Program-made: the position numbers and the translations under genes
The notes under the pieces: generated by a model
The model's input: only the letters and a program-made list of their open reading frames with translations
Told to the model about the DNA's origin: nothing
Databases searched by the model: none
Shown here: one piece after another, positions 8,815 through 64,000 of the stretch
How the letters are laid out: each line of letters begins with the position of its first letter
How positions within the stretch are numbered: the stretch's first letter is position 1
From: Syntrophomonas sp.
Lineage (GTDB): Bacteria > Bacillota > Syntrophomonadia > Syntrophomonadales > Syntrophomonadaceae
DNA length: 64,000 bases
NCBI GenBank assembly: GCA_016841425.1
Contig: JAENZE010000005.1
Location: 124,001 to 188,000, forward strand
Direction of reading: 5' to 3'

Positions 8815-8864
8815 GTTTTGTTATCATAACAAATCACGAACTACCTTTCCTCGAAGTGTTCCAT

Positions 8865-9030
8865 GCACAAGTTGGACAGGTCTCCTGGCTCGCATATCAT
8901 CCTCCCCTTAACCCCTTCCCGATTGCTCAGTGGTAACGCTAAGGTTTGTATCTGCTCACAGTGGCGGGACCGCTCAGGATTTTAACCTGATTCCCTATTA
9001 AGCCCTTAATGGCATCCAACCTGATACTAT
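8865..9030 (-). ncRNA. Cobalamin (AdoCbl-type) riboswitch aptamer
   Basis: Minus-strand landmarks in order: the 5' segment with GGTTGGATGCCA, AATAGGGAATCAGGTTAAAA, ATCCTGAGCGG, then CCCGCCACTGTGAGC, and finally the B12 box GCCAGGAGACCTGTC at about 8876-8890. These match the conserved core of the cobalamin riboswitch. Together with the terminator at 8780-8814 it should control the whole cbiA-cbiC operon by transcription attenuation. The ends of the aptamer are approximate. Confidence 0.95.
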
Positions 9031-9062
9031 TCTGTTATAAACGACTAAGTTAACGTAGTAAT

Positions 9063-62268: not shown

Positions 62269-62776
62269 GCCCTTTCCCTCCTTTTTTGGTAATTGTTTAT
62301 TTCTATGGTTCCTAAGCTATGCATAATGAAATTCTTTCCTCCCCTCCAATTTTCTGCAGCAACTCCACTTAATATGCAACGTATAACCCACCCGCATTAG
62401 TAAGGCTATCGAATCTCAACAAACTGACAGCTCAAAGTACTGTATACAACCTCTGTAATGCATTCTTTTCTCTACTGTGATGGTTTATAAATTCTTATAT
62501 GTTGATATATTACGTTTACGTATGTTTTTGTTAGTCTATTGTCTATTACTGTCTAATTATAATACAAATTCAAATGTGATCAATAGTACAACAGCATATT
62601 ATCATAGTAGAATTATGACTTTTTATTATTGGTAAGTTTTAAATATATTTCCAGTATAACTTCATGGACTTCTATTACAAAAGCAGAATTTTATTAAAAA
62701 ATATTTTATTGTTATATTTATTATAATTATATGTTATTGTTTGTACAGTATTTTTATTGAAACCAGGGATAAACCA
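62269..62776. other. Upstream region of the nuo operon, no gene seen
   Basis: About 500 bases, very AT-rich. The nuo promoter should be here. No coding frame with a ribosome-binding site was found. Confidence 0.4.
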
Positions 62777-62782
62777 GGGGGG

Positions 62783-62870
62783 TAAACCAGGGGGACGGTT
62801 CTTGCGGTTGGTCAATGCTTATGGATAATGCCTTTGTAATATCAACCGCAAGAACCGTCCCCCTGGTTTA
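62783..62870. repeat. GGGGACGG-core palindrome with extra partial copies
   Basis: Perfect 28-base inverted arms (62783-62810 and 62843-62870), each with the core GGGGGACGGTTCTTGC and a small AACC/GGTT stem. On the left AACCAGGG-type fragments repeat from 62761; on the right GAACCGTCCCCCTGGTTTA and CCCCCTGGTTTA repeat to 62909, as if the unit had slipped or been cut several times. Confidence 0.9.
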
Positions 62871-63065
62871 CCCCGAACCGTCCCCCTGGTTTATATCCCC
62901 CTGGTTTATAGAGTTAATTATCTGAAACTGAGCATAGAATAATATTAGAATAAACAAAAATTTAATATTGAAAATTAATTGTAAATTTGAGAAAATACAA
63001 GAGTAGGAATAAATACCAGCTCTTAGCTGGTATTTATGAGTGAATCATGATTAGGAGTTCCTCAA

Positions 63066-63168
63066 AAGGTAGTAAGGTAAGAACGGTAGGTAAAAGAATT
63101 GGGTGCGAATTGCTATTTTCAAAAGATGGTATTCAGCGCTGTTCTTCTACTCCTGCGGGAGTTTTTTT
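63066..63168 (+). ncRNA. Attenuator-like leader RNA, copy A
   Basis: Conserved start GGTAGTAAGGTAAGAACGG and TAGGTAAAAGAAT, then a variable part, then the terminator stem ACTCC-TGC-GGGAGT with seven T. A GGTAA near the start can pair with TTACC just after the T run. A ribosome-binding site (GAAGGAGGCG) follows at about 63188-63197 but no gene does. Same organisation as copy B; I do not recognise a known class. Confidence 0.6.
63149..63168 (+). terminator. Intrinsic terminator of leader copy A
   Basis: ACTCC, TGCG and GGAGT make a hairpin that is followed by seven T. Confidence 0.85.
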
Positions 63169-63295
63169 ATTACCTGGATAATTTGCAGAAGGAGGCGAAA
63201 TATCATCAGATGATTTTATTACCCTTTAACTTATGATACTGCATGAAAGCTGCCCAGGTTTTCACAGGTAGTTTTGCAGGATGGTTGAACAATTA

Positions 63296-63413
63296 AAAAG
63301 GTAGGAAGGTAAGACGGTAGGTAAAAGAATGAGGTGTTAACCAGTAATCCTGGCTGCACTTTGCGCAAGCAGGTTTCTGCACCATTCTTGGAACTCCTAT
63401 GGGAGTTTTTTTT
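63296..63413 (+). ncRNA. Attenuator-like leader RNA, copy B, upstream of dctP
   Basis: Starts GGTAGGAAGGTAAGACGG then TAGGTAAAAGAAT as in copy A. AAGAATGAGGTG can pair with CACCATTCTT, enclosing CCAGTAATCCTGG and GCAAGCAGG hairpins. It ends in AACTCC-TAT-GGGAGTT with eight T. The dctP ribosome-binding site (AAGGAGG) lies just after. A metabolite-sensing attenuator is inferred only from this design. Confidence 0.6.
63392..63413 (+). terminator. Intrinsic terminator of leader copy B
   Basis: AACTCC and GGAGTT make a 6-bp stem around TATG, followed by a run of T. It is 33 bases before the dctP start, so it would have to be avoided for expression. Confidence 0.85.
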
Positions 63414-63445
63414 CTTGCCTGAAGCCAGTTATTAAGGAGGAAAAA

Positions 63446-64000
63446 ATGCGAGAATTGTTGGGTAGAAAAGGATCTAAAAATATTTGGGGGATAAGCAAAA
63501 AAATATTGTCTGTGCTGCTTATTCTTATAATGGGTGCTGCTGTGGGATGTTCAAATACCAGCAGTGAACCGGAGCAGGAGCAGGCCACTGTAGTTGAACT
63601 GAGATTGGCACATTTTTTTCCCAGTACTCACCCTGCTGAGACAGAACTAATCCAACCCTGGATTAAGGCTATTGAGGAGGCAACCGATGGGCAGGTGATA
63701 ATAACCAGTTATCCCAATCAGACCCTGCTGAACGCTGACTCCATATATGCAGGGGTAGTGGATGGCAGTACAGATCTGGGCCTTTCATGTTTCTCATATA
63801 CCCGGGGTCGTTTCCCGGTACTGGAGGTCTTTGAACTGCCAGGTATTACTTATAATAATTCCAAAGTTGCCAGCAAGGTGGCATGGGAAGGCATACAAGA
63901 ACTTGATCCCCCGGAGATTCAAGATACTAAACTTATGATGGTACTTACTACTGGCCCCGGCGATTTGTACACCAAGGATCCAGTCCGTAACCTGCAGGAT
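63446..64000 (+). CDS. dctP: TRAP transporter substrate-binding lipoprotein DctP (5' part)
   Basis: The first 185 codons are visible and the gene runs off the window. After an N-terminal basic stretch comes a lipoprotein signal (KILSVLLILIMGAAVG then Cys), then the solute-binding domain with ELRLAHFFPSTHPAETEL near residue 53 and a DctP-type segment (NQTLLNADSIYAGVVDGSTD near residue 91). TRAP transporters take up carboxylic acids with an ion gradient; the substrate cannot be read. Ribosome-binding site AAGGAGG. The two leader RNAs before it suggest control by transcription attenuation. Confidence 0.88.
   Translation, partial: MRELLGRKGSKNIWGISKKILSVLLILIMGAAVGCSNTSSEPEQEQATVVELRLAHFFPSTHPAETELIQPWIKAIEEATDGQVIITSYPNQTLLNADSIYAGVVDGSTDLGLSCFSYTRGRFPVLEVFELPGITYNNSKVASKVAWEGIQELDPPEIQDTKLMMVLTTGPGDLYTKDPVRNLQD

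Follow-up and report, generated by a model that had tools for sequence, protein, structure and literature searches.

The two leader sequences that precede dctP in the analysed stretch of Syntrophomonas sp. DNA (64,000 nucleotides; hereafter, the window) are best read, with a probability of about 0.7, as tandem attenuators of an aromatic-amino-acid regulon, in which a GGTAG-repeat array would be the RNA site of a HutP-family protein (PF09021) and the ligand-bound form would promote termination. The proposal is built on a conserved element, a co-varying hairpin, a conserved terminator, an aromatic set of repeat-led genes, and the co-occurrence and linkage of the repeat with HutP.

Two leader units upstream of dctP

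The units lie on the + strand, and their boxes start at 63068 (copy A) and 63300 (copy B). The box sequences, GGTAGTAAGGTAAGAACGGTAGGTAAAAGAAT in A and GGTAGGAAGGTAAGACGGTAGGTAAAAGAAT in B, share the pattern GGTAG(T/G)AAGGTAAG(A)ACGGTAGGTAAAAGAAT. In a scan of the window, the 17-mer ACGGTAGGTAAAAGAAT was found in exact form at 63083 and 63314; when up to three mismatches were allowed, 3 matches were obtained against 0.19 expected, a number reached in no shuffle. The boxes, the hairpin feet, and the terminators of A and B are aligned by the repeat finder (families D2–D4) at spacings of 231–244 nt, which agrees with the initial annotation, made from the sequence alone, of two similar blocks about 230 bases apart with the same type of terminator.

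The order of the parts is the same in each unit: the box, a hairpin (P1) with a variable interior, an ACTCC-NNNN-GGAGT terminator with a T run, and an AAGGAGG Shine-Dalgarno-like block. In copy A, the box GGTAGTAAGGTAAGAACGGTAGG (63068..63090) carries the triplets TAG, AAG, and TAG at distances of 9 and 8 nt, in columns that are invariant over ten copies from the genus. P1 of this copy (63094..63146) is formed by AAGAAT (63094–63099) and GTTCTT (63141–63146), and the intrinsic terminator ACTCC-TGCG-GGAGT with its T run (63149..63168) is kept in all copies. In copy B, the box GGTAGGAAGGTAAGACGGTAGG (63300..63321) matches the 22-nt period-8 pattern described below with 2 mismatches, P1 (63325..63389) pairs AAGAAT (63325–63330) with ATTCTT (63384–63389), and the terminator ACTCC-TATG-GGAGT with its T run (63393..63413) was recovered by the repeat finder, the terminator scan, and the genus alignment. 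The ACTCC/GGAGT-T7 cores are at 63149–63162 and 63393–63406, and in both copies AAGAAT pairs with (G/A)TTCTT, as assigned from the alignment, the pair counts, and the matched-arm test described below.

The AAGGAGG block is present 3′ of both copies, and only copy B is followed by a gene, exactly as had been noted at first. The block behind copy A, AAGGAGGCGAA, lies at 63189..63199; reading of the sequences disclosed no start codon properly spaced from it, and a hidden gene there was rejected. Behind copy B, the ribosome-binding site read directly at 63434..63440 serves dctP, the gene for a TRAP-transporter solute-binding protein (NCBIfam NF037995 and Pfam PF03480, both above cut-off), which starts with ATG at 63446 and runs past the window end (63446..64000); dctQ and dctM come next (ORFs in L017). 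About 25 nt 5′ of box B, direct reading revealed a pair of NAG triplets (63268..63285; GTAG, then GCAG 8 nt on) resembling cluster I of the aroF leaders, where the cluster gaps are 17–25 nt. Further upstream, a sigma-70-like promoter, TTGAAA-17 nt-GAAAAT, is predicted on the + strand at 62968..62996 (9/12 in the consensus scan; the region was aligned by eye with genomes G013–G016), from which the leader transcript would start. The predicted transcript would then carry near its 5′ end a hairpin with a perfect 13-bp stem (63009..63037, +; inverted repeat I8), and a similar hairpin exists in G013 and G014.

Several other features were observed in and near the window. At 62766–62909, GGGGTAAACCAGGGGGACGGTTC is repeated on both strands in nested inverted and direct orientation, with 32-bp perfect arms and a 32-nt loop; GGGGACGGTT- and AACCGTCCCC-type repeats resembling them lie near other loci (L064, L067, L091), which suggests a mobile or palindromic repeat family. 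A cobalamin riboswitch is located at 8858–9034 on the − strand (Rfam RF00174, 104 bits). Downstream of dctM (L017:6723-9407), a sensor histidine kinase is encoded that contains several PAS domains and has no response regulator adjacent to it.

Conservation in the genus, the order, and beyond

When 54 genomes of the family were searched with a gapped pattern, every one of the five from the window's genus contained the box, which had no exact match elsewhere. All five carry the tandem of both copies upstream of dctP, with AAGGAGGCGAA and never a gene behind copy A. When the ten genus copies were aligned, the box and the terminator were almost invariant, while the hairpin interior varied freely; the variation in sequence and length between conserved ends, seen initially in two copies, holds for the genus.

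A first covariance model, built from these ten copies, gave strong matches in further genera (E 1e-5 to 1e-15), and a wider model made later, with a cut-off of E ≤ 0.01, matched 44 of the order's 63 genomes. The strong matches are upstream of either a DctP solute-binding protein or an MFS transporter of the lactate/oxalate-formate type. Most of the order's genera, and also Desulfotruncus, have a single leader copy before dctPQM or the lactate/oxalate-type MFS transporter. A pattern scan with one genome per species yielded 18 records, including Syntrophomonas wolfei subsp. methylbutyratica and two Desulfotruncus species, in both of which the leader precedes dctP too. The restriction to a single strain that the initial annotation had considered is therefore not found: the tandem occurs in 5/5 genus genomes and single copies occur across the order.

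The Rfam search of both copies gave no match to any family, T-boxes included, at the gathering threshold, and only chance-level matches up to E 10. The first impression that the block belongs to no familiar riboswitch or T-box class was thereby borne out, and the suggested search of Rfam and of related upstream regions led to an element without a known family that extends far beyond the strain. The two leaders belong to a GGTAG-repeat leader family that had no name before and falls outside the known RNA families.

Two model matches lacked the repeat and were judged to be chance: G016:C22, upstream of a transposase, where only the terminator-like part was matched, and L100 (G030:C191). A weak match (E 0.004) with GTAG pairs was noted at L129 (G062:C1:816000-819500), upstream of an uncharacterised 406-aa protein and then an apparent trpF. 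In the genus g4 (G006–G009), the dctP leader boxes have diverged (L071, L073–L075). The dctP coding starts in L065, L071, and L073 contain GTAGG/GCAGG-type repeats that run into the first codons (e.g., AGTAGGAAGGTAGGCAGG in L071), which looks like a continuation of the array beyond the terminator.

Hairpin P1 and the alternative pairing

For the hairpin, the 20 bases after the box were matched with the 20 bases before the terminator, a test that is independent of the fitted alignment. In 23 non-redundant leaders, the arms with their own partners gave a mean of −10.27 kcal/mol, compared with −7.77 (s.d. 0.51) for permuted partners, and none of the 5000 permutations (0/5000) reached the observed value (p < 0.0002). 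Because the matched arms out-pair the permuted ones in this independent test, P1 is a real, co-varying hairpin; the covariation that had been proposed as a check is present in its arms. In the fitted alignment, which itself leans to structure, 94% of the pairs are standard and 20 double changes were counted, far above the shuffles and the slid controls. The particular pairing proposed earlier, GGTAAG with CTTGCC or TTACC, can form in the window, but it is inconsistent in the alignment of relatives. Single-sequence folding gave z scores of −2.57 for copy A and −0.29 for copy B, so the energy of folding by itself is no proof. The conserved core is the 5′ GTAG repeat rather than a structured aptamer.

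Base pairing of the box with the terminator's CUCC arm was also assessed. In the wide test, the value was 0.82 against 0.73 in shuffles, a slight excess, and in the narrow GGTAGG:CTCC test, 1.60 pairs were found against 1.39 expected, no clear excess over shuffled boxes. The competing pairing of the box with the CUCC arm is possible and weakly favoured. Whether the terminators lack an alternative structure, the third objection raised in advance by the initial annotation, is only weakly decided by the wide test. The repeat as an antiterminator strand pairing with CUCC was put aside as a candidate, the narrow test being not clearly above the shuffles and the wide one weak.

The repeat precedes genes of aromatic-amino-acid metabolism

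Through weaker matches of the covariance model, aroF and the binding proteins of ABC transporters were reached in the same genomes. Three features were found in the aroF leaders. One is that GGTAGNAY units are repeated with an exact period of 8 (e.g., GGTAGTATGGTAGGATGGTGGG), with an earlier unit pair 17–25 nt upstream, so that the arrays consist of two clusters about 20 nt apart (gaps of 17–25 nt in 15 cluster pairs). Another is that the first GTAG unit comes right after a −10-like hexamer, because of which the aroF mRNA is predicted to begin with the repeat. The last is that a period-8 GTAG pair is found in 25 of the 29 aroF upstream regions as compared with 0 of 29 control stretches inside the gene. 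The period is 8 in the aroF leaders (5 nt between triplets) and 8–9 in the dctP leaders, and in the alignments most triplets retain AG but differ in their first base (GGTAAG/GGTTAG/GGATAG/GGCCAG). An aroF array is also present in the window's own genome, at G000:C19:111095, with 0 mismatches to the period-8 pattern. Close reading of two genomes showed the aroF leader at the head of an aroF-tyrA-aroA cluster.

With the 22-nt period-8 pattern and up to 2 mismatches, 134 of the 398 phylum genomes were positive, compared with 33 for the reversed control. The genes of 30 fetched repeat loci were named by NCBIfam and Pfam or recognised by sequence. Most encode DAHP synthase (aroF), and the others are TrpX, DctP, PaaK (phenylacetate-CoA ligase), the start of IorA (indolepyruvate:ferredoxin oxidoreductase), tyrosine phenol-lyase/tryptophanase, an acyl-CoA ligase, and hutP. 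The match to TrpX, of a tryptophan ABC transporter, is full length, yet it falls under its equivalog cut-off. Since the same repeat precedes aroF, trpX, paaK, iorA, the tyrosine phenol-lyase/tryptophanase gene, and hutP, the element is probably of a protein-binding type and belongs to an aromatic regulon. The repeat-led genes are an aromatic-amino-acid regulon, comprising synthesis, uptake, and salvage, and not the target of a carboxylate sensor. The idea of a duplicated sensing leader for a transporter gene thus survives as a duplicated attenuator-like leader; a free-standing aptamer or a carboxylic-acid sensor special to dctP, for which in-line probing with carboxylic acids had been proposed, is not supported.

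Aryl acids activated by PaaK and then carboxylated by indolepyruvate oxidoreductase constitute a known anaerobic route to aromatic amino acids. Both DctPQM and the MFS carrier were seen beside acyl-CoA ligases; these carriers may import aryl acids or related compounds, and dctPQM probably imports an aromatic precursor. A longer GTAG-type array was observed at G083:C1:5944376-5944405, in a 6.8 Mb genome that has no HutP, and no obvious gene lies downstream of it.

A HutP-family protein as the candidate reader of the array

A HutP-family protein (PF09021) is encoded in the window's genome (166 bits, against a cut-off of 25), in each of the family's 28 good genomes, and in 257 of the 398 sampled phylum genomes. 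In nearly all loci, in the family as in the phylum, hutP stands directly before the chorismate mutase gene aroH (TIGR01796), and aroF or trpE often lies beyond. HutP was found in 128 of the 134 repeat-positive genomes, compared with 129 of the 264 others (Fisher p 1.9e-23, shared ancestry uncorrected), while the control with the reversed pattern gave 23 of 33 genomes (p 0.57). In stratified tables, with common descent likewise uncorrected, the association holds both in genomes with TRAP (MtrB; p 2e-6) and in those without it (p 1e-13). Of the 6 repeat-positive genomes with no HutP match, 3 are 80–91% complete. Genomes for which hutP is listed contain 106 sites, of which 35 are within 10 kb of the gene and 13 within 1 kb, a linkage that partly reflects the clustering of aromatic genes; in several genomes, the repeats occur within the leader of hutP itself. 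The arrays are thus probably read by a HutP-type RNA-binding protein encoded beside aromatic genes.

A PDB sequence search with the family protein matched no HutP structure, and its predicted structure is a poor model (pLDDT 58.5). In a literature search that left out most subscription papers, no link of HutP to chorismate mutase or aromatic amino acids was found, and novelty is accordingly not proven. In the genus g4, four genomes (G006–G009) have an additional HutP-family gene, which has diverged further (about 110 bits).

The strongest competitor, although an unlikely one, is that another RNA-binding protein, or a DNA-binding protein, reads the array and HutP merely travels with the aromatic genes. 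Gene clustering could produce the hutP linkage, and direct repeats 8–9 bp apart can be DNA sites. Nevertheless, the array would be transcribed, as the first repeat follows a −10-like hexamer; it holds a fixed place before the hairpin and the terminator; NAG is the triplet known to be bound by HutP; and the repeats in hutP's own leader are also against mere travelling. Somewhat less probable still is that TRAP, the tryptophan-activated (G/U)AG-repeat protein, reads the arrays as an irregular site. TRAP is encoded in the window's genome (127 bits) and in 200 of the 398 phylum genomes, it senses tryptophan and binds KAG repeats, and tryptophan-supply genes belong to the regulon. On the other hand, the trpE leaders beside hutP have TRAP-type GAG repeats with a sharp mode at 5 nt, while the mode of the arrays studied here is 8 by the same measure. 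Furthermore, TRAP is missing from 42 of the 134 repeat-positive genomes, including well-covered ones (G009, 100%; G040, 98%; G045, 92%; G006, 92%), and, given HutP, it has no significant effect (p 0.12, common descent uncorrected). TRAP was thus rejected as the array reader on spacing and distribution.

It is very improbable that the leader binds a small molecule or tRNA by itself, as a riboswitch or T-box-like element with no protein: a conserved leader with a hairpin and a terminator does precede biosynthetic and transport genes, but what is conserved is a linear repeat and a terminator, the hairpin interior is free in sequence and length, and Rfam gave no match, even to T-boxes. An ordinary terminator pair with a chance duplicated segment, to which the commonness of terminators and the lack of a gene behind copy A might point, is ruled out for practical purposes by the same tandem layout in five genomes, the conservation of the element over the phylum, and the co-varying hairpin.

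Proposed mechanism

In each unit, NAG triplets are arrayed on the 5′ side as GGTAG repeats (basic period 8 nt), and a hairpin and an intrinsic terminator follow. Under the HutP reading, this array most likely serves, as single-stranded RNA, as the site of the clostridial HutP-family protein encoded next to aroH and DAHP synthase. With its ligand, probably an aromatic amino acid, the protein would bind the array on the nascent leader. The bound array would leave the CUCC arm free, the terminator would form, and the synthesis and uptake genes would be turned down; when the ligand is scarce, the CUCC arm could be captured by the free array, and RNA polymerase would read through. The bound state most likely promotes termination, like TRAP and unlike HutP of B. 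subtilis, because an abundance of aromatic amino acids should switch off aroF and the uptake genes. With two units in series, termination would be multiplied, making the control of dctPQM tighter and steeper.

A wider generalization, which we favour with a little less confidence, is that the HutP-family protein, widespread in clostridia and recognised solely through its homology to a regulator of histidine use, would act by attenuation as the master RNA-binding regulator of aromatic-amino-acid synthesis, aryl-acid salvage, and uptake, working beside TRAP through an 8-nt GGTAGNAY code, with a doubled switch on the transporter operon in this genus. If true, this would provide a function for the HutP-family protein of 257 of the 398 sampled phylum genomes and define an aromatic-amino-acid RNA regulon that the Rfam models do not cover. 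Two NAG-reading attenuation proteins, the HutP type and TRAP, would share one pathway by means of different spacing codes (8 versus 5), and the TRAP transporter of syntrophic bacteria would be tied to aromatic supply.

Comparison with known systems

HutP of B. subtilis is an antiterminator responding to histidine, and the NAG triplets of its hut leader are separated by 4 nt (period 7), as opposed to 5-nt gaps and a period of 8 here. In HutP-type attenuation, the protein binds RNA together with an amino-acid ligand and Mg2+. The genes are also different, namely aromatic genes here and histidine-use genes there, and hutP is linked here to aroH; moreover, the array here is 5′ of the terminator, and its bound form is suggested to promote termination. 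The likeness lies in the intrinsic terminator of the leader, in the presence of a PF09021 protein, and in the site itself, since the HutP site (PMC7430163) and the arrays here both have their NAG triplets grouped in two clusters, with a distance of 20 nt in the former and of about 20 nt in the latter.

The T-box leaders of aromatic genes in Firmicutes likewise exert attenuation on such genes, but no T-box or other Rfam match and no tRNA-reading structure were seen here. Tandem riboswitches and T-boxes resemble the present pair in that a single gene is preceded by two successive regulatory leaders; the unit here is a repeat site with a terminator and has no folded aptamer. The trp attenuation by TRAP shares a NAG-triplet repeat 5′ of a terminator, a likely aromatic-amino-acid signal, and the logic of repression. 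It differs in the period (8–9 here versus 5, with 2–3-nt spacers, there), in that the arrays here have few triplets in two clusters, and in the gene set, which here includes aroF, dctPQM, and trpX, while the true TRAP-type sites are on trpE leaders. We read the leaders as a new variant of NAG-repeat attenuation. Typical TRAP sites were observed directly downstream of hutP-aroH: the trpE leaders between aroH and trpE (L163–L192, e.g., L164, L167, L170, L172, L176, L177, and L182) carry many GAG triplets with a 5-nt period, together with a terminator.
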